From: Candidatus Cloacimonadota bacterium
GTDB lineage: Bacteria > Cloacimonadota > Cloacimonadia > JGIOTU-2
Length of the DNA stretch: 58,250 nt
Assembly: GCA_016932035.1 (NCBI GenBank)
Contig: JAFGDR010000057.1
Span: 1-58,250 of the forward strand
Reading direction: 5' to 3'
The translations under genes were made by a program, and so were the position numbers. The notes under the pieces are model-generated. The model ran no database searches. It worked only from the letters and a program-made list of their open reading frames with translations, and was not told where the DNA came from. Shown piece after piece: positions 424 through 11,387 of the stretch (positions are counted from its first letter, which is position 1; every line of letters begins with the position of its first letter).

Positions 424-2601
424 TTATCTCATCAGAATAAGTTTTTGTGTTGTTTCTATATTATCCGTTTTGATTGTATAGAAATAGATGCCATTTGAAA
501 CGCTCTTTCCTGAATTATCTTTTCCATCCCAGATTGTATTATAACCGGTTACAGATGGTTCCAATTCAAGTGTTTTTACAACCTCGCCTTTAATATTATA
601 AATCGTTACATCTTCCAATTCTTGAATATGCGATTTTGAGGAAAATGATATGGTTGTTTCATCAGTAAAAGGATTCGGATAACTTCGCATCGTCATTTCA
701 GGTAGTTCAGGATCGTCGATTGAAATATTCTGGTGATAATATAGTGCCCCCATATCAGCTCGTGTTCCATCAGGATCAAGCGGTGATGTAGGATCTCCAG
801 CGTCTATGCATGGTGAGGTTTCCTGCAGACTCCAATCTGCTTCAAGACCATTAAAGCTCGGTCCATCTCCAGTAGTAGGATCAACAAACAAAGGATCATC
901 ACTGATATTACCGGTTCCAGCATAACCGCCAGACAGGTCGGAATAAGTAACAACTGGATTACTTGAGAAATTAATAAAGACATCTCCAGTTTGCCTGAAA
1001 ATAGAATTGTCAATAATTGGATTGGATGATGAGAATAGATAAAATGTATAGTTGGAAAGATTATTAGCAACAGTGTTATGGGTGATTTCAGGACAGGATT
1101 CATTCTTCATACTAAAAGCACCTGCAAACATAGCTTCATTATTCACAATGATGTTCCTTGCAATCACCGGGGACGAATCATCCAAACTTATTGCCCCACA
1201 CAAACTTGAGCTTGTATTATTTGAGATCAGATTCCATTCAATGAGAACATCATCAGAATTACGAACGTTGATCGCCGGACCTTTTTGTGAAGTAGTCGAG
1301 TTTTCATAGATCGTATTGTGCCCAACAACAACACGAGCATTGTAGATATCTACTGCACAATCCACTGAGCCGGTTATCTGAGAATACCCAAGAGCATTCT
1401 CGTAATCATTATTGAAGAAATACAGCCCACTCCATGTATTGTCAGTAGTGAAGATAATATTTCCTCTGTCATTACCAATTGCAGAAAAGTATCCTTCGAT
1501 TGTTATCTTACTTCCGTTATTCGTGTGAACCTCAACATTCGGTTCTATCTCAAGCATGTTTTCATCTGCAAGATGTGCGTCATCCGTTATTATATAAGGA
1601 CTATATGCCGAAGTCCAAATACCTGAAAGTTCTCCGCTTATGTCGGCTGTGCTTGTTACAGTAATGTAATCTTCGGCAGTAGCGGTTGCGGTTTCCACAC
1701 CATCAGAAATACGAAGGGATACATCATAGGTTCCAATCGTATCATATAAATGATAGGGATTCTCTTCTGTACTGTCCCATGTTCCATCTCCGTCAAAATC
1801 CCATTCATATGATACAATTCCAGTATCAGGATAGGATTCGTTGTAGAATTGCACACCCAATTGCGGCGGTCCGGATTGAATATTGCTGCTGAAAATTGAG
1901 AAAATACCGCTCACCCCACAGGTGGCTGCCTGATGTATTTTGTAATTGCTTGAAAAAGTCTGAACAATCGCCACTGCTTTCAAATCCGGTAATACCCAAT
2001 CCGGATCATAGGTAAATGAATAGGAAAAACTTCCGGTCTGACCTACTGTGGTAAGATTAAAATTCTCATCGTGATATGCAACGACCGCACAAGTATAATC
2101 ATCAGTGTATTTATAGGTGAGTAGAAGAATGATCTTGTTGTTAGTAGTAGTGATATTTCCAGTCAGTTCAACATCAGCCTGAACATCAATGGTCGATTTT
2201 GAGGTAACATCCATCGTAATGTCAATTGCACATGGACTATCCAGGGCATTAAGTGTATTGTAATGAGGAAGGTAATAATTATACATACTACCACCAGAAA
2301 TCCCACCAACTTCTGAAATATATCCTCCAAACCGAGCATGAGGAATACCGCCGACACCGTACATACCTCCACGAGTGCTGTAATTGGGACTTGGCATCCC
2401 CACGTAGCCGCTTGTGCTTTGCCAGAAAATCGGAATAAAGTTATCGAAATTAGCTTGAAGATCTCTCAACCCGGCCCGGGCTGATGGACAGTATCCTCAA
2501 GACGTGGATGTAAATACTTCCCCGACCACGTTCATTTGTGTTGCAGAAAGTATCATAGGAAGAAGTATGATACCAGCAAGTAGTATAAGTAATTTTTTCA
2601 T
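424..2601 (-). CDS. Secreted selenoprotein: thioredoxin-like (UxxC), PKD, beta-helix, sorting domain
   Basis: Read from ATG 2601 (GGAG 8 bases upstream), the frame is open to 424 except for one TGA at codon 35. If that codon is selenocysteine the product is 725 residues. In order it shows: a signal peptide (1-20); an Omp28/thioredoxin-like part with redox motif TSTSUGYCPSARAGL (U35, C38) and a GIP cis-proline-like loop near 85; a beta-sandwich; a PKD domain around 243-316 (YEWDFDGDG); a right-handed beta-helix-like region of about 325-605; and a C-terminal sorting domain (SYPNPF, TIYNIKG, GIYFY). The upstream paralogue in the same operon has TGTWCPNC, so U35 aligns with a catalytic Cys. A bacterial SECIS hairpin follows the TGA. 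A conventional reading would start at TTG 2469 and lose the signal peptide and redox motif. The alternative is a nonsense mutation. The seleno reading is an inference, but a strong one. The substrate is unknown. Confidence 0.82.
2466..2484 (-). promoter_or_regulatory. Bacterial SECIS element
   Basis: Minus-strand RNA UCAGCCCG (2484-2477), loop GGC (2476-2474), CGGGUUGA (2473-2466) forms eight consecutive pairs including one G-U. The apical loop starts with GG, and 20 bases separate the UGA from the loop. This fits the known bacterial SECIS rules: a stem-loop just 3' of UGA, a small loop with G at its start, and about 16-37 bases of distance. The GC-rich patch is out of character for this AT-rich gene, which suggests selection on RNA structure. 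Confidence 0.78.
2497..2499 (-). other. In-frame UGA, predicted selenocysteine codon
   Basis: The minus-strand codon TGA is preceded in frame by ACA TCC ACG TCT and followed by GGA TAC TGT, giving a U-x-x-C redox motif. Upstream in the same frame are a good ribosome site, an ATG and a signal peptide; downstream the frame stays open for 690 codons. The codon takes the place of the first Cys of the CxxC motif seen in the paralogue at 10308-11387. Confidence 0.8.
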
Positions 2602-2623
2602 GATAAACTCCAAATTAAGTTAC

Positions 2624-5227
2624 TTATTGTATTATTGTGCATTGTTTTACTTGTTTGACTTGATTATTAACTGATAATTTATAAAGATAAGTTCCAGTTG
2701 AAACCGGAACGCCATTAACATCTTTTCCGTTCCATTGAATGAAATGATCCCCGGTAGTCATATCCCGGTCGATCAGTTTCTTAACCAGCTGCCCTTTGAT
2801 ATTATAGATAGCAATTTCTACTTGCGCTTGTTTCTCAAGAGTAAAAGATATTTGCATTTCTGTATGGTGTGTTAAACTGAAAGGATTAGGATAATTCTGA
2901 TAGAGTTGTGAAAGTACCTGCTGCTGTGGTTCAGGATCAGTACTAACAATGATCTCATCCAGGTCGATCTTGTATGCAGAACAGCCATAGGTGCCGATCA
3001 CCATAAATCTGTCTGGATTATAAATTTTAATATCAACAACTGGAACATTTGGCAAACCTTCAGAAAGACTGTGCCACTCAAAACCACCATTGTCAGTAAA
3101 AAATACCCCTGAATCAGTGCCGACAAAAAGCTTATTAGGAATGTCAGGATCTATAGCAATGACGTTAACTGGTATCTGTGGTAAATTCCCGCTAATATTG
3201 TACCAGTCCTGACCTAAATTTGGTGATTTAAAGACATGCGGAGCTTCTTCATCCCAGCGGAAACCGGATACTGTTGCATAAATCGTATTAACATCATGAG
3301 GATCACATGCAACACGGGTGAACCAACGGTCAGGTAATCCGGCAGAAATATCATTCCATGATGAACAGTTATCTGTTGAAATATGCACTCTTCCATCATC
3401 AGATCCGGCAACGATAATGCTTGGATCGAGCTCAGATATTGCAATTGTCGTGATCGTATGGTAGCTGCTGCCGTCATCACCCTGTGTCAGGTCTCCACTT
3501 ACCGAAGTCCAGCCTGATCCACCATTCGTGGTTTTCCAGATTCTGTATGTTCCAAAATAAAGGATATCAGGATTGGTTGGGTGTATAACATATGGTGAGG
3601 ACCAGTTCGTCCTATCACCGGACATTGGACCAGCAATATAGCTCATATATGAGCCACCGTTTGTTGATCTATAGAGATTTCCCCATTGATATTCCGCAAA
3701 GATAGTGTTGGGATTCGTGTAGTCTACAAGACAATAAAAACCATCTCCACCAAGGATTGCTTCCCAGTCGTTCAACGCACCGGTCATCGTACGTATGGTG
3801 TTGTTATCCTGTGTTCCGCCATAAATTCGATAGGGATATGTCTGATCAATCTCAATAGCATAGAACTGTGTCATGGGCAGATTGTTGATTTTCGTCCATG
3901 AGCTTCCGTTTGTCGTGCTCTTGTATAATCCCCCATCATTTCCTTCCAGAATGAATAAAACATCATCATCGATATACATTGCATGATGATCGACATGCAT
4001 ACTTGAACCAACTTGACTCCAGTTATTTCCACCGTTCGTAGTTCGATAAAGATACACACCCATAACATATACCATATCTGGATTATTCGGATCAACTCGT
4101 ATCTGACCAAAGTACCATCCAAAGGTGCTGTTGATACCCTGAAGCGACCCATCGTTTGTTGGAATCCAAGTATTTCCCCCATTATCGGTTTTAAAAACAT
4201 CAACCTGGTTCGTTCTATCATAAAATGCATAGAGTCTATCTGGGTTGGATTTTGAGATTGCCAAACCGATTCTACCGACATCGCTGCCGGTGGGAAGTCC
4301 TGAAGTTAACTCGACCCAGGTATCTCCACCATCTGTGGTTTTCCAAATCCCTGAACTTGGTCCAAAAGATCGTCTGTAGGTCAAACCTCTCATGCGCTCC
4401 CACATCGCTGCATAAAGAATATCAGGGTTTGTAGTATGCTGCACCAGATCGACTGCCGCTGTGGAGTCAGTAATGAAGAGCTTTCTCTCCCAGGTCTGTC
4501 CACCATTCTCGCTTCGGAATACACCGCGCTGTTCGTTTGCCGAAAAAAGGTTTCCGCAAGCAGCAACATAGACTCTCTGGGAATTGTTATAATCTACAAT
4601 GATCCTACCGACGTATCCTGACTCTTCCAATCCGATATGATCCCAGGAAAGACCACCATTAGTGGATTTATACATTCCATTACCCAGGAAGCTGTAACTG
4701 GAAGCATTTGCTTCACCAGTTCCAACATACAGTGTATTTTCATCATTAGGATCAAGAGCAAGAGCTCCAATTGATATGACTGGTGCTTGTGTAAAGACAT
4801 TCTCCCATGTGTTTCCAGCATCGATTGTTTTAAAGACACCACCCGATGCAGCTCCAACATAGAATTTATCAAGGTCGCTCGGGCAAACAGCAAGGTCGGT
4901 AATTCGACCACCAATATTGGTTGGACCCACAAGCTCCCAGGAATATTTATAAGCTGAAGCTGATTCATGCATTTTCTGCGCTTCATCCATACTCTGGAGA
5001 TAGTTGTCGATTTTGATCTTATTATGGGGATACACCCGTTGATATGCCATCCATTCATTAGGAAGCACATCAGGTTCTTTTAGAACTGCTTCACCATGAG
5101 GTCGTTCGACCCATCGATCTGCCGGTTTTCCCTTTTTGTGAGTTGTAGGTACTGTTACGAGAATGACAACTACTGCAATGACAAGAAGAAAAATGATCAA
5201 ATATGTTTTATGCTTAAAAATGTTCAT
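2624..5227 (-). CDS. Secreted Asp-box (BNR/sortilin-like) propeller protein with sorting domain
   Basis: The product is 867 residues. An N-terminal hydrophobic segment (about 9-27) acts as signal or anchor. From about residue 95 to 760 there are roughly ten Asp-box turns such as YKSTNGGLSW, FRSENGGQTW, WKTTDGGDTW, FKTDNGGNTW and YRTTNGGNNW, the signature of VPS10/sortilin-like or sialidase-fold beta-propellers. The last 90 residues are the sorting-type domain (YQNYPNPF, IYNIKGQLVKKL, GTYLYKL). Such propellers bind proteins or glycans and no catalytic residues are evident, so an adhesive or structural role is more likely than hydrolysis. It ends 22 bases before the selenoprotein ATG and starts 4 bases after the subtilase stop, so it lies inside the operon. 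Confidence 0.85.
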   Translation of the reverse strand: MNIFKHKTYLIIFLLVIAVVVILVTVPTTHKKGKPADRWVERPHGEAVLKEPDVLPNEWMAYQRVYPHNKIKIDNYLQSMDEAQKMHESASAYKYSWELVGPTNIGGRITDLAVCPSDLDKFYVGAASGGVFKTIDAGNTWENVFTQAPVISIGALALDPNDENTLYVGTGEANASSYSFLGNGMYKSTNGGLSWDHIGLEESGYVGRIIVDYNNSQRVYVAACGNLFSANEQRGVFRSENGGQTWERKLFITDSTAAVDLVQHTTNPDILYAAMWERMRGLTYRRSFGPSSGIWKTTDGGDTWVELTSGLPTGSDVGRIGLAISKSNPDRLYAFYDRTNQVDVFKTDNGGNTWIPTNDGSLQGINSTFGWYFGQIRVDPNNPDMVYVMGVYLYRTTNGGNNWSQVGSSMHVDHHAMYIDDDVLFILEGNDGGLYKSTTNGSSWTKINNLPMTQFYAIEIDQTYPYRIYGGTQDNNTIRTMTGALNDWEAILGGDGFYCLVDYTNPNTIFAEYQWGNLYRSTNGGSYMSYIAGPMSGDRTNWSSPYVIHPTNPDILYFGTYRIWKTTNGGSGWTSVSGDLTQGDDGSSYHTITTIAISELDPSIIVAGSDDGRVHISTDNCSSWNDISAGLPDRWFTRVACDPHDVNTIYATVSGFRWDEEAPHVFKSPNLGQDWYNISGNLPQIPVNVIAIDPDIPNKLFVGTDSGVFFTDNGGFEWHSLSEGLPNVPVVDIKIYNPDRFMVIGTYGCSAYKIDLDEIIVSTDPEPQQQVLSQLYQNYPNPFSLTHHTEMQISFTLEKQAQVEIAIYNIKGQLVKKLIDRDMTTGDHFIQWNGKDVNGVPVSTGTYLYKLSVNNQVKQVKQCTIIQ

Positions 5228-5231
5228 GTTA

Positions 5232-7310
5232 TCATCTCAAAATAATGAATTTATTCAAGTAATTTGTGTTTTGTATCTGATAAAAATAAACACCTGTGTT
5301 GAGAGATTGCACATCGAGCTGCGCAGTTCCATTGTTGCCACGGACTTGTGTAACAAATTCACCTTTTACATTATAAATCGAAATGGCAGGATCAATGTGC
5401 TGAACATGTTGTGCATAGTGTATGGTCAATGTAGTTGCAACAGGATCTGGATAATGAGAAACGATCATGTTTGTTTGAGGATTTTCATCAATTCCGACAT
5501 TTGTACAACCTTCTGCAAAAACATCTAAGAAAAACATATAGAATGGTTGCTGATTTATCGCAATTTCACCATCATAACACTGTGCACAGGAAGGACAGAA
5601 TGTAAGATCGAATGCCTGGCATGAACCGCTTGCAACAGCATAATTAAGAGCATTTCTTGCAGGATCGTCGGAATCCCTGAGAGTTACAGTAAATCCGTCC
5701 GGGGTTGAGATCGTACCGCGAAGAGTATCACCGCCAACATTTTCGATATAGAACTGCAATGTCGAATCGGTTCCAACAAAAACATTCCCAAAATCAAGAG
5801 TTGTAGGAAAGAAATTCATTATAGGACTTGGAGCTGGAACCTGATTGATTGCTTCCAATGCATCGATTCTTCCTGATCCAAATGTATTGCTTTTATTGGT
5901 AGAAAGTTGATAAGCAGTTTCTTCAAGAATTTGATCGATATCAGCAGGAGTTAGGTTATTGTTTTTTGAGAGCATAAGTGCCATGACGCCAGCAGCACAG
6001 GGTGTTGCCATCGATGTACCGCTCCACCCGCTTTCATACCCGTAATTGCTGTAATGTGCAAGAGATTTGATATTTTGTCCAGGGGCAACAACATCAGGAC
6101 GGATCAAACCCATTTCCGGAGAATAGGGATAATCATTAAATCCAGAAATGTATTCCCATGTAACAGGTCCTCGTGCTGAGAAGGATGCAATTCCATCACC
6201 GGAATTCGTTGCACCAATACAAATAACTGAACTAATGCCGCCTGTGAGTGTCTGATCCGGATGAAGCCAGGGAGGAGGGCAGTCTCCAGGAGTCCTGATA
6301 TTGTCCGGAATGGGATACATATATTGCTGATCACCCTCATTACCCGCTGCAACAGAAGCTGGTATGCCAGCAGCAAGCAGTGTATTCATCGTATTTCGCC
6401 AGGTTATCCTATTTGGACTCCATGCATGAAGCCATCCGAGTGACATACTGATAACATCAGCACCATTATCAATTGCAAATTGAATGGCATTCCATACACC
6501 GGATTCGGAACCCCCACCACCGTTATCGAGCACCTTAAGGCACATAATTTGAGCATCAGGTGCCATACCGGTCTGTGACCCAGCAGTTCCATCTCCAGCA
6601 ACCGTACCTGCACAATGTGTTCCATGTCCATGATCATCCATAGGATTGTTATCATTATATCTGAAATCCCAACCGTGGTAGGGATAGCTGGGATCAGTCC
6701 AGAGGTGGTCTGCAAGGTCGACATGATTATAGTTCACACCGGTATCGATAACTGCAACTGTCACACCGCTTCCTGTATAACCAAGATCCCACACATCATC
6801 AGCTTTGACTTTGGTAACATTCCACGTGATCTCACGGGTCGTAGGGAAAGCTGGCTCACCTTTTTCAAACATAAGCATGTTACGAATCTCGTCATGATCG
6901 ATCAGATCTATATCATCTCGATTAATAAGGGTATAAATAACTTCGGCAGTTGCCTTACAAGAAATGACATTTGATACCCACAGAGGAGTAATATCTTTCA
7001 CAATACTATTGAAAGAGAAGTTCTCCAGATCATAGAGTAAATCTTGCTGATGGTATTCGCTAAAGGATTTCAGTTCCTGAATAACAAAATCTCTTCTTTC
7101 AGATTCTGGTAAATATGCACTTTGCTGCAACAAATCCTGATGATCATATTGTTGTTTCATTATTATGTTGACGGGTATGAGTTCTGTTGTTTCACTCTGC
7201 TGCAATTTTTGTTCAAGCTGCGGAGTAAGTATATCTTGGTTTCCATACAATGCTGAGAAGCCGCTCGTGACCAACAACACTGCAATGAAGAGGGAAAGTT
7301 TAAAACGCAT
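5232..7310 (-). CDS. Secreted subtilisin-like serine protease (S8) with sorting domain
   Basis: The product is 692 residues with a signal peptide (1-22). A propeptide-like region runs to about 150. The catalytic triad is visible as D189 (AVIDTGVNYNHVD), H229 (DDHGHGTHCAG) and S433 (GWSGTSMATP), with the oxyanion Asn in AAGNEG. A choice-of-anchor-D/HYDIN-like sandwich follows (TTLDFGNVFVGTDSTLQF). There is an unusual cysteine cluster (FCPSCAQC), and then a somewhat diverged sorting domain (HYPDPVATTLTI, IYNVKGEF, GVYFYQI). A strong AAGGAG precedes the start. The cysteine-rich segment in a DsbD operon suggests that its disulfides may be managed by the neighbouring redox proteins; this is inference. 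The protease family call is secure and the substrate unknown. Confidence 0.93.
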   Translation of the reverse strand: MRFKLSLFIAVLLVTSGFSALYGNQDILTPQLEQKLQQSETTELIPVNIIMKQQYDHQDLLQQSAYLPESERRDFVIQELKSFSEYHQQDLLYDLENFSFNSIVKDITPLWVSNVISCKATAEVIYTLINRDDIDLIDHDEIRNMLMFEKGEPAFPTTREITWNVTKVKADDVWDLGYTGSGVTVAVIDTGVNYNHVDLADHLWTDPSYPYHGWDFRYNDNNPMDDHGHGTHCAGTVAGDGTAGSQTGMAPDAQIMCLKVLDNGGGGSESGVWNAIQFAIDNGADVISMSLGWLHAWSPNRITWRNTMNTLLAAGIPASVAAGNEGDQQYMYPIPDNIRTPGDCPPPWLHPDQTLTGGISSVICIGATNSGDGIASFSARGPVTWEYISGFNDYPYSPEMGLIRPDVVAPGQNIKSLAHYSNYGYESGWSGTSMATPCAAGVMALMLSKNNNLTPADIDQILEETAYQLSTNKSNTFGSGRIDALEAINQVPAPSPIMNFFPTTLDFGNVFVGTDSTLQFYIENVGGDTLRGTISTPDGFTVTLRDSDDPARNALNYAVASGSCQAFDLTFCPSCAQCYDGEIAINQQPFYMFFLDVFAEGCTNVGIDENPQTNMIVSHYPDPVATTLTIHYAQHVQHIDPAISIYNVKGEFVTQVRGNNGTAQLDVQSLNTGVYFYQIQNTNYLNKFIILR

Positions 7311-7319
7311 TACATCTCC

Positions 7320-8048
7320 TTATTTAAGTAATAGTAATTTATCTGTAATTATAGTTTCATCTTCAAAAGATGTTGAGTAAAAATATACCCCATTTGGAAC
7401 AGATTCTCCATTTTGATCTGTTCCGTCCCAGGTGACTGAGTTCATATCTGGGGTAATGTCGAGGATTTTTATCGTTTCACCTTTGATATTATAAATCGTA
7501 ATATCTGCAATTTTGTTGAAGTTATTCTGCGAGGTAAATGAAATCGTTGTTGAGCCACTGAAGGGATTGGGTGAATTTTTAACAGAGATCTGGTTCTGGA
7601 TTTGAGGATCATCAACCGATACACCTGTTGTGTATTCAAAATTTACATTAACCGGAACGGGAAGACTTGCCGCAGTAAACTTATAGGAAAAACTCATTGA
7701 TCCTGCTGAGGACACTGTTATAGTGAAATCAAGTTTGAGTGTGTCACCGGCACCAAGAGTAATATGCCATGGAAAACCCGGTAAATGGCATGCGCCAGCA
7801 CCTTGATACAAATGGCACCAAATCATCGACCAACCGGTTGGAATATCGACATAATCAACCATCACAGTGAAATCATCCTCTGCACCAGTATTGACCACAT
7901 CGAAATATTCTGATTCATAATTATACGTTGAATCATTGTATGCAGGTCCGATAACTTGAGGATCAAAGGGAATATGAATACTCAGATCTGCATGTAGACT
8001 TATGGCAGTAAAGATCAGTGCGCTTATTAGTATTATTATTTTTTTCAT
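7320..8048 (-). CDS. Small secreted protein with beta-sandwich and sorting domain
   Basis: The start is the ATG at 8048, seven codons of signal after AAGGAG; an upstream in-frame ATG at 8063 lies inside the previous gene's stop region and is less likely. The product is 242 residues: a signal peptide (MKKIIILISALIFTAIS), about 120 residues of beta-rich sequence that looks Ig- or PapD-like, with two cysteines (IWCHLYQGAGAC), then the sorting-type domain (NSPNPFSGSTTISF, TIYNIKGETIKIL, GVYFYST). No enzyme motif is visible. Its position between the DUF6029 barrel and the subtilase suggests an accessory exported partner. Confidence 0.8.
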   Translation of the reverse strand: MKKIIILISALIFTAISLHADLSIHIPFDPQVIGPAYNDSTYNYESEYFDVVNTGAEDDFTVMVDYVDIPTGWSMIWCHLYQGAGACHLPGFPWHITLGAGDTLKLDFTITVSSAGSMSFSYKFTAASLPVPVNVNFEYTTGVSVDDPQIQNQISVKNSPNPFSGSTTISFTSQNNFNKIADITIYNIKGETIKILDITPDMNSVTWDGTDQNGESVPNGVYFYSTSFEDETIITDKLLLLK

Positions 8049-8062
8049 ATATGCTCCTTCCA

Positions 8063-9493
8063 CTAAAATGTGGTAATTAATTCAGCTCGTAAACCCTCAA
8101 ACTGTTTGCGATATTTGCAAATACCATTTCGGCAAACTTTTCCGCCCTTCTCTTTTCCAACAAACAACCGAAGCGTGGTATTCTTGAGAACTATCTTACT
8201 GATCTCTGCACCAAGCCATGGTGTTTTTTTACCGATCTCTTTTAAATTTTCGCAGGAAGATTCTGCGATCACAGAGACATCGAAATCAAAGATGTTTGTA
8301 TCGATCTGAACAAGAGGTTCCCAGTGATGTGATTTTTCCTGCTGGTAGTGTTTATCAAAATATTGAAGTTCAGTTTTGATAGAGATTGGCATTTCACCGA
8401 TCATGAAATCGTACATGACAGTTGGTGTTACTTCTTTTTCCCAGTGCTGAACATTATTATCCTTTCTTTCAAGGTGTGAAAAACTGGCAGTCAGTGTCGA
8501 CATATCAAAATAATGAATGCCTTCAATCCATAGGTCAGTCTGCCGTATCGACCAGTCATCATTCCATTCTTCTGAATAATTCAATATGAGTTCATTGAAG
8601 TCGTTTGGCAGGAATGAGATCTCTCCCATTGCACCCTGTTGATCTTTTCCAATCGGAGAATCATACATGGGTTCATTGCTGTGATTAATGATAGGTAAAT
8701 CGTTAAGCCGGGAAACAAAATTTAAATAATTGTTGTATGCAACTGTAAAAGAGAAAATATTGAAGTACGTGTTCAGATTTGCGTAAAGTGCATGACCGAT
8801 CTTTGAGATACCCTCCGATTGATCCAGGTAGCCATATTCAGCGTTGAGGTCAAACCAGCTTGCATTGAGATTTGTTCGTGCTGCAAAGATCTTTCTGTCG
8901 AGATAATTATCTCCTGCCTGCCATTCACGGACATTCACAAATGAAGCGCCAAGTTTTACTGCTTCAAAGATATCTTTCTGAAAATCAAGACCAGCTACAA
9001 CATCATTCTTTGTAACATTATCTTCGTTTGGAAGCGCTGCATATAATGCTTTTGCCTGGAAAGATCTAGGGAATATTTCAGCAGAGAATCCATTAAGACG
9101 TGTATCGATATTAAAATCTCTGTCTCTGTATGCTCGCAATGCAATACCGGATCCGAATACCTGTTCAAAATTTCCTGCACGAGCAGAGAAATTATCGATC
9201 TTATATTCGAGGAATCTTTCATCCCACCTATAGGAAATCGACTGAGAGGTGAGTTCTTCCATTGCCGCATAATCATCATACTTTGGAAGTTCAGCAATAA
9301 ACTTCATCCCAAAGGTAAAATTCTTATATGTAAAACGAAAACTGAACTCATCAGAGAAGTAATTTTTTAAAGAGTCTTCTGCATTCTTGTACACATAGAT
9401 CGCTTCGTTCAGTCCACTGATACGTAGATCCTGTACGGCAAATAAAGCTGATGTTATTGAAATGATAAAAAGTATGAGTATTATTCTTTTCAT
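8063..9493 (-). CDS. DUF6029-like outer-membrane beta-barrel protein
   Basis: The product is 476 residues with a signal peptide (MKRIILILFIISITSALFA). The rest is alternating polar/aromatic strands typical of an outer-membrane barrel (FSFRFTYKNFTFGMKF, FSARAGNFEQVFGSGIALRAY) and a C-terminal block with a Cys pair (VCRNGICKYRKQFEG), ending in Phe. This resembles the DUF6029 family, which I recall near thioredoxin-family genes in FCB bacteria; that recollection needs a search. It lies 2 bases after the TlpA-TonB gene stop region and 14 bases before the next start, so it is co-transcribed. It may form a channel or an outer-membrane anchor for the redox proteins, which is inference. Confidence 0.72.
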   Translation of the reverse strand: MKRIILILFIISITSALFAVQDLRISGLNEAIYVYKNAEDSLKNYFSDEFSFRFTYKNFTFGMKFIAELPKYDDYAAMEELTSQSISYRWDERFLEYKIDNFSARAGNFEQVFGSGIALRAYRDRDFNIDTRLNGFSAEIFPRSFQAKALYAALPNEDNVTKNDVVAGLDFQKDIFEAVKLGASFVNVREWQAGDNYLDRKIFAARTNLNASWFDLNAEYGYLDQSEGISKIGHALYANLNTYFNIFSFTVAYNNYLNFVSRLNDLPIINHSNEPMYDSPIGKDQQGAMGEISFLPNDFNELILNYSEEWNDDWSIRQTDLWIEGIHYFDMSTLTASFSHLERKDNNVQHWEKEVTPTVMYDFMIGEMPISIKTELQYFDKHYQQEKSHHWEPLVQIDTNIFDFDVSVIAESSCENLKEIGKKTPWLGAEISKIVLKNTTLRLFVGKEKGGKVCRNGICKYRKQFEGLRAELITTF

Positions 9494-10308: not shown

Positions 10309-11387
10309 TATTCACTCCCCTTTCCTGCTGACATATCCTCTTCAATCACATTATATATTTTGCATGTATCAGCATTATATGGATCGGCAACAGTTTGAAG
10401 CCAGACGTACAGGACAATATCATCGGGAACAGTTGACGGCATTTCCAGTTCGAATGAAACAGGTGAATCAAGGTTTTCTGCACTGATATTCTTCATTCCC
10501 TTGGTAATGACCACTTGCTCGCATGGTCTGCCATTATATCCATTAACTGATGATACTTTTTCAACAAGTGTAAATTTTAGATAAAGATCATCTGATGAGA
10601 GAGCATCTGTTTTATCAACAGTTATTTCGCCGAATAATGTATCTGATATGGTATAGGAAAGATCTTTTAATTCTGCCAGAGCGTCAACATCAATGAATGT
10701 AATAAGCGTATTTTGATATTGAGCGTATGTATCTGCACCACCGCCGGTTACACGAACCTGACCCTGAAACATCGATTGCGGAGCAGAATAATCCATACCG
10801 TAGTATTGGATCACTTCGATGGCTCCTATATCGAGTACATCATTCCAGTGATACTCCATATAATATAGTTTATCTCCATATTCATCTTTCAACTGCTTGA
10901 GAGCATCTTCTGCATAATGACAATTCGGACACCATGTTCCGGTAATCATTTCAACAACTACCTTTTGGGGAACGGGTGGTGAAATTTGGTTGCCGATAAA
11001 AAGGAAGCTATCTCGTAGAGCTTGAGCATAGTCTATAAAGGTTGTATCAACACCTGCAGCTACTATTTGATATGACACCTTTAATTCTGCTTCAGATAAT
11101 ATCTCGATCTCCATCGCAATGCTGTCCGGTGAAGCATCTGCAAGCGAAGAATAGAAATTCTCCATATCTGCTTTTTCCATTCCGTTGTTCAGATATGTAT
11201 CCGAATAGTAAGTCATGATCGATGCAACATCATCATAGAGAACACCTTCCTCTACATGGTCTGTGAAGCGCATCAGGAAGTGTTCAAATTCGGTTAGCAC
11301 AGGATCAAAATGATGGGAGAACCTATCGCAGGAAAACATGGATACTATCAATACAGTCACGAGAATGAGGAGTGTAATTTTTTTCAT
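10308..11387 (-). CDS. Omp28-like thioredoxin-fold lipoprotein (CPNC)
   Basis: The product is 359 residues with a lipoprotein signal ending VSMFSC (lipidated C20). An N-terminal helical region (about 25-130) is followed by a thioredoxin-like domain with VVVEMITGTWCPNCHYAEDA (C153, C156) and a beta-sandwich C-terminus resembling Omp28-related outer-membrane proteins. The redox segment aligns without gaps to the selenoprotein at 424-2601, where the first Cys is replaced by UGA. It is therefore the cysteine paralogue that supports the selenocysteine call. It lies 19 bases after dsbD and overlaps the TlpA-TonB start. The likely role is a membrane-tethered periplasmic thiol oxidoreductase fed by DsbD. 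Confidence 0.8.
   Translation of the reverse strand: MKKITLLILVTVLIVSMFSCDRFSHHFDPVLTEFEHFLMRFTDHVEEGVLYDDVASIMTYYSDTYLNNGMEKADMENFYSSLADASPDSIAMEIEILSEAELKVSYQIVAAGVDTTFIDYAQALRDSFLFIGNQISPPVPQKVVVEMITGTWCPNCHYAEDALKQLKDEYGDKLYYMEYHWNDVLDIGAIEVIQYYGMDYSAPQSMFQGQVRVTGGGADTYAQYQNTLITFIDVDALAELKDLSYTISDTLFGEITVDKTDALSSDDLYLKFTLVEKVSSVNGYNGRPCEQVVITKGMKNISAENLDSPVSFELEMPSTVPDDIVLYVWLQTVADPYNADTCKIYNVIEEDMSAGKGSE

Follow-up and report, generated by a model that had tools for sequence, protein, structure and literature searches.

A gene for a secreted protein in a Candidatus Cloacimonadota genome carries an in-frame UGA followed by a compact, GC-rich hairpin. Is this hairpin a bacterial SECIS (bSECIS), through which the UGA would be read as selenocysteine (Sec)? 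The stretch of DNA that was analysed (58,250 nucleotides, hereafter the window) contains the coding sequence on its minus strand at 424..2601. Direct reading, Pfam and NCBIfam matches and a structure model define it as a putative selenoprotein of 725 residues with Sec at position 35. A candidate Shine-Dalgarno-like motif, GGAG (2608..2611, minus), was read by eye from the sequence 6 nt upstream of the ATG (2601-2599). The UGA (2497..2499, minus) was located by direct reading and aligned with the TGC/TGT of homologues, as the predicted Sec codon of a UGYC redox motif; around the site the coding sequence reads MKKLLILLAGIILLPMILSATQMNVVGEVFTSTS-UGA-GYCPSARAGLRDL. The hairpin is almost certainly a bSECIS that SelB binds, with the UGA read as Sec and the product a secreted, probably cell-surface, UxxC oxidoreductase. 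As the ribosome arrives at UGA 2499, the C-terminal domain of SelB would bind the GGC-capped stem-loop and deliver Sec-tRNASec(UCA), the UGA would be decoded as selenocysteine instead of a stop, and Sec would act as the attacking residue of UxxC in the product.

The hairpin, UCAGCCCG-GGC-CGGGUUGA (2466..2484, minus), was recognised from its fold, its covariation and a synonymous null. It begins 12 nt after the UGA, and positions 2484-2477 pair with 2473-2466 in a stem of 8 bp. Its GGC apical loop (2474..2476, minus), the presumed SelB contact, was read directly, and both further UGA genes found in the genome share it. The earlier note had proposed eight consecutive pairs and a GGC loop 20 bases past the UGA, and both hold on direct reading (2476-2474 relative to 2499-2497) and folding, one of the pairs being G·U. 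It was also right that the stem is GC-rich within an AT-rich gene (74% GC for the hairpin vs 40% for the coding sequence), but its codon split CCC-GGG-CCG-GG was off by frame, the true codons being TCA-GCC-CGG-GCC-GGG-TTG. The 19-mer folds alone at -10.7 kcal/mol, with 5 of 200 shuffles equally good, and the stem is retained in the minimum free energy (MFE) structure of 71 nt (z = -1.96). Published constraints for a bSECIS are a loop of 3-9 nt with a G among its first two positions, a stem of 4-16 bp, a spacing of 16-37 nt and an MFE <= -7.5 kcal/mol (PMC13188914). The GGC loop, 8 bp, 20 nt and -10.7 kcal/mol of the window hairpin lie within all of these.

On its own the hairpin is only moderately unusual. 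It is the sole hairpin with at least 8 bp, a 3-nt loop and at least five G-C pairs on both strands of the window. Resampling codons by the usage of the gene, with the protein fixed, gave such a hairpin with P = 0.011, and an equal or better hairpin follows 13 of 709 arbitrary codons of the coding sequence over the full bSECIS search space. A scan of the window with Rfam at gathering score returned zero matches, a scan that says little on SECIS elements within coding DNA. With so modest a signal, the GC-rich stem might be a by-product of the conserved CPSARAGL motif and codon choice, devoid of RNA function; codons for Ala, Arg and Gly are GC-rich, and the synonymous null gives only P = 0.011 for the window gene. 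We nevertheless regard such a by-product as extremely improbable, and it is the comparison of homologues, rather than the single fold, that carries conviction.

The N-terminal domain was searched in 124 genomes of the phylum and found in 100, and the site codon was read in 109 genes (65 UGA, 44 TGC/TGT). Covariation, which the earlier note had proposed to examine, was scored in 41 in-register homologues, UGA and UGC genes together, and compensatory pairing was found. The eight pairs were formed in 82.6% of cells, vs 35-42% with one side slid by 1-3 nt, in genes that were chosen from rows whose hairpin scan placed the loop near register, a choice that favours high pairing. A wider set of 64 UxxC/CxxC rows, free of this choice, was 79% paired vs 31-42% when slid. 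In the same 41 homologues, 48 cells had two-sided changes, compared with 24 after shuffling; the covariation score was 0.381 vs 0.182 in shuffled alignments (0/500 shuffles). Thus the stem is kept through compensatory change among UGA homologues, as counted jointly with UGC genes. The most telling pair is 21/29, where a synonymous change follows a nonsynonymous one: it swaps among C-G, G-C and U-G through the third base of a synonymous Ala codon when a Gly/Ala residue changes. Where Gly (GGG) follows ARA/ARS, the third base of the upstream Ala codon is mostly C or U; where Ala (GCG) follows, it is mostly G. These swaps argue against a by-product of protein sequence, as does the ARQGLL subset (L029, L048, L049), in which the hairpin lies four nt further downstream with the protein motif retained. 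Some UGA homologues, L027 and L094 among others, showed a weak hairpin in a simple scan.

The UGA itself is widely shared. Of the homologues, 65 from 35 genomes have it, in most cases leading a UxxC motif, and it aligns with Cys of other homologues. Fourteen loci (L097, L099, L100, L082, L084, L086, L087, L090, L094, L095, L098, L103, L105 and L109) have UGA without a following xxC; in these CUGxD and GUGGDY subfamilies the predicted Sec is either a neighbour of Cys or separate from it, which is an unusual setting for Sec. Reassignment of UGA (to Trp, Gly or Cys), a nonsense mutation or a sequencing error could also place an in-frame UGA here, and its alignment with Cys fits such an account. 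Yet 29 of the 35 genomes have a typed tRNASec(UCA) and one has both tRNASec types, and the UGA is shared by the two closest relatives, at 90 and 77% identity, which leaves a reassigned or erroneous codon scarcely credible.

The selenocysteine reading also has its machinery. The home genome contains SelA, SelB, SelD and a tRNASec with a UCA anticodon, with selA and selB directly after the tRNASec gene. Besides the Omp28-like gene it has two further UGA genes, SelD2 and a ResA-like gene, both with a GGC-loop hairpin. Two copies of selD are present, L222 (G000:C33:3525-4451) and L221 (G000:C2:19251-20177), one with UGA and the other with TGT at the active site. The hairpin of the UGA copy, UAAGUCC-GGC-GGACUUG, lies 17 nt past the UGA, as does that of the ResA-like gene, CGGC-GGC-GCCG with flanking pairs. 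The latter gene (L173:2379-4301, plus strand) adjoins selC-selA-selB on the upstream side and encodes a secreted protein with the motif FFWGGTGUGGC and a T9SS-type tail, whose sequence resembles ResA weakly. In another genome, G110 (L174), an Omp28 selenoprotein gene lies directly upstream of the ResA-like UGA gene.

If the hairpin serves UGA decoding, how does it behave where the site codon is a Cys codon? The hairpin score had a median of 15 in the 65 UGA genes vs 9 in 18 homologues of family f3 (p = 3e-8), a comparison limited by the latter being a more distant subfamily (CPGAAMG). No f3 genome had SelB over cut-off or a convincing tRNASec; the one tRNA-like match, in G040, lay just above gathering score. 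Stem loss where Sec machinery is missing again speaks against a by-product of the protein motif, though in this more distant subfamily. The hairpin score distinguishes the classes better than MFE z-scores do, since stable folding of non-Sec homologues has other causes. The closest clean control is L021, a TGT homologue (50% identical) without the stem in a UCA genome (G068). The window holds an internal control, a Cys paralogue: the TGT (10929..10931, minus) of a second Omp28-like gene (WCPNC) has no hairpin, the best being only 3 bp. The stem is therefore absent from true Cys homologues, the non-Sec class being a distant subfamily, with a pair of genes in G108 as an exception and L122 (G093, TGT), whose hairpin score is perhaps due to chance, as borderline. 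Sec machinery, compensatory pairing and stem loss in genomes without the machinery all bear out the earlier view that the hairpin supports the selenocysteine reading.

Fifteen TGC homologues from seven genomes depart from this pattern: they mostly keep the stem, frequently with a GGUC loop, and have a median score of 17. The earlier note had held that a stem conserved equally in Cys-containing homologues would count against its reading; stems do occur in TGC genes, yet almost only in genomes with tRNASec(GCA), and they are absent from f3, L021 and the window paralogue. From the stem in TGC homologues, a tRNASec with a GCA anticodon was predicted for their genomes and then searched for. Rfam matches to tRNA-Sec over gathering score, with GCA at the position of UCA in the tRNASec alignment of relatives, were found in G054, G056, G057, G061, G062, G083 and G104, and also in G103. 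Including G058, which carries both UCA and GCA, the tRNASec(GCA) loci are L131, L132, L138, L140-L143, L145 and L198 (genomes G054, G062, G056, G083, G061, G057, G104, G058, G103); 51 genomes have UCA only. G058 also carries two selB genes. G056, the one genome in which tRNACys was looked at, has an ordinary 74-nt tRNACys as well as tRNASec(GCA). The SelB proteins of GCA genomes cluster with modest support, joined by the second SelB of G058, and may have one origin.

The codons follow the anticodons. A UGA copy of the Omp28 family occurs in no GCA-only genome vs 29 of the 32 UCA genomes in the set (Fisher p = 8e-6, uncorrected for kinship). In GCA genomes the Omp28 site codon is TGC in 15/15 genes and never TGT (p = 5e-4 vs the non-Sec class). 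For SelD, eight genomes that are UCA, mixed or untyped have UGA, as does one of the two home copies, and none of the eight GCA genomes does. After TGC or TGT, SelD of G054, G057 and G083 has a hairpin resembling that of UGA orthologues, and G061 and G062 have a different strong hairpin after the Cys codon; among the eight GCA genomes compared, none was found after the Cys codon in G056, G103 and G104. A search of the Omp28 family found no UGC targets for the tRNASec(GCA) of G058.

These hairpins might instead be fossils of a UGA-to-UGC conversion, with plain Cys at the site. SECIS-like remnants have been recorded downstream of Cys codons (PMC1794560), and G108, in which the only tRNASec found has UCA, contains two such genes, L083 and L110 (contig G108:C63), with TGC/TGT and good hairpins. 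This pair is a true exception to the match between stem and tRNASec. It may represent fossil hairpins, contamination or transferred genes; the assembly is 6% contaminated and has a ResA-like gene with UGA. Fossils are an unlikely explanation for the remainder. The tRNASec(GCA) was found in exactly the TGC-hairpin genomes, the TGC hairpins score as high as those of UGA genes (17 vs 15), and the stem shows compensatory variation among TGC genes (CAGCGC/GCGUUG, CCGCGC/GCGUGG, AAGCGC/GCGCUU), to which the invariant TGC of Omp28 and the five SelD hairpins after Cys codons are added. In GCA genomes the hairpin persists in two families, every Omp28 site reads UGC and UGA members are missing, so the UGC genes are most likely selenoproteins; judged by sequence, the TGC codons of Omp28 homologues in GCA genomes are probably Sec codons too. 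Very probably, UGC encodes Sec via tRNASec(GCA) in seven or more Cloacimonadota genomes of five families (genera g21, g23, g24, g28, g29, g41 and g48), with the same SECIS that follows UGA in the window, and G058 keeps both tRNASec types, which would make the phylum a natural codon-swap experiment in which the codon varies and the SECIS does not.

What would the window gene produce? A signal peptide precedes the UGA and 690 residues continue in one frame beyond it, where synonymous codon changes exceed nonsynonymous ones between the gene and its two nearest relatives. The signal peptide is followed by an Omp28/HBP35-like thioredoxin-fold domain, containing EVFTSTSUGYCPSARAGL with its U-G-Y-C motif, and then by PKD, a right-handed beta helix and a FlgD-Ig/Por secretion tail. 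Pfam matched the beta helix, PKD, FlgD-Ig and Por secretion tail, and the N-terminal domain matched Omp28 weakly. An AlphaFold model built from 43 homologues (pLDDT 92) has a thioredoxin fold whose first helix begins with UxxC; its best PDB match is Porphyromonas gingivalis HBP35 (5y1a), and Omp28 (2r2c) was found too. HBP35 is a surface protein exported by the T9SS. The product would be a secreted, probably cell-surface thioredoxin-fold oxidoreductase related to P. gingivalis HBP35/Omp28, with predicted redox activity and T9SS export. Unlike those proteins, it would have Sec for Cys, and it differs further in its 15% identity and extra C-terminal domains. At 424-8063 (minus) the window encodes secreted proteins in a row with FlgD-Ig/Por secretion tails (Sortilin-Vps10-like, subtilase S8 and the selenoprotein), and this run looks like a T9SS-type export cluster. 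A single-protein scan placed three named relatives, Candidatus Cloacimonadota MAGs, nearest.

The N-terminal domain also matched NCBIfam NF045500 (Omp28-related selenoprotein; E = 5.8e-23, 81.9 bits), although the whole protein stays under the curated cut-off of 200 bits. This family is listed in a review as 'hypothetical protein GOS_C' with UxxC (PMC13188914), and GOS_C was first described from Global Ocean Sampling data (PMC2398784). The window protein has UxxC at the same site in an Omp28-like Trx-fold N-terminal domain but, unlike the family, continues into PKD, beta helix and a T9SS-type tail; by sequence it appears to be a related but divergent protein. The hairpin resembles the E. coli fdhF bSECIS in being a small coding-region stem-loop just past the UGA with a loop-initial G and 20-nt spacing, in a genome with SelB; it differs in that its 8-bp stem is very rich in GC and capped by a GGC triloop, the predicted SelB contact.

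Some bacteria use UGC/UGU for Sec (PMC8124441). PMC10778597 gives ten sense codons for Sec, with UGU in Aeromonas salmonicida, from earlier work taken to be Mukai 2016, and PMC5330540 credits Mukai 2016 with a Cloacimonetes-type tRNASec. Our literature search, whose reach did not extend to Mukai 2016, found no paper on selenocysteine in Cloacimonadota. Like sense-codon systems, the relatives combine a tRNASec bearing a Cys-codon anticodon with a SECIS-like hairpin after the Cys codon; unlike them, the genome of the window uses UCA/UGA, UGC/GCA appears in several relatives and in two gene families, and one Cloacimonadota relative carries both tRNASec types. The bSECIS, the Omp28-related selenoprotein family and Sec at Cys codons via variant tRNASec are all already known. 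The window hairpin is a real bSECIS, surrounded by what is very probably a clean natural swap of codons.

These results support the presence of a surface-type selenoprotein in an uncultured phylum that has been little studied, and suggest that the constant feature is the SECIS rather than the codon. Annotation by in-frame UGA alone would overlook the UGC-encoded selenoproteins of relatives. With UGA/UCA, UGC/GCA, both and neither represented in one phylum, a change of Sec codon identity is open to direct test.
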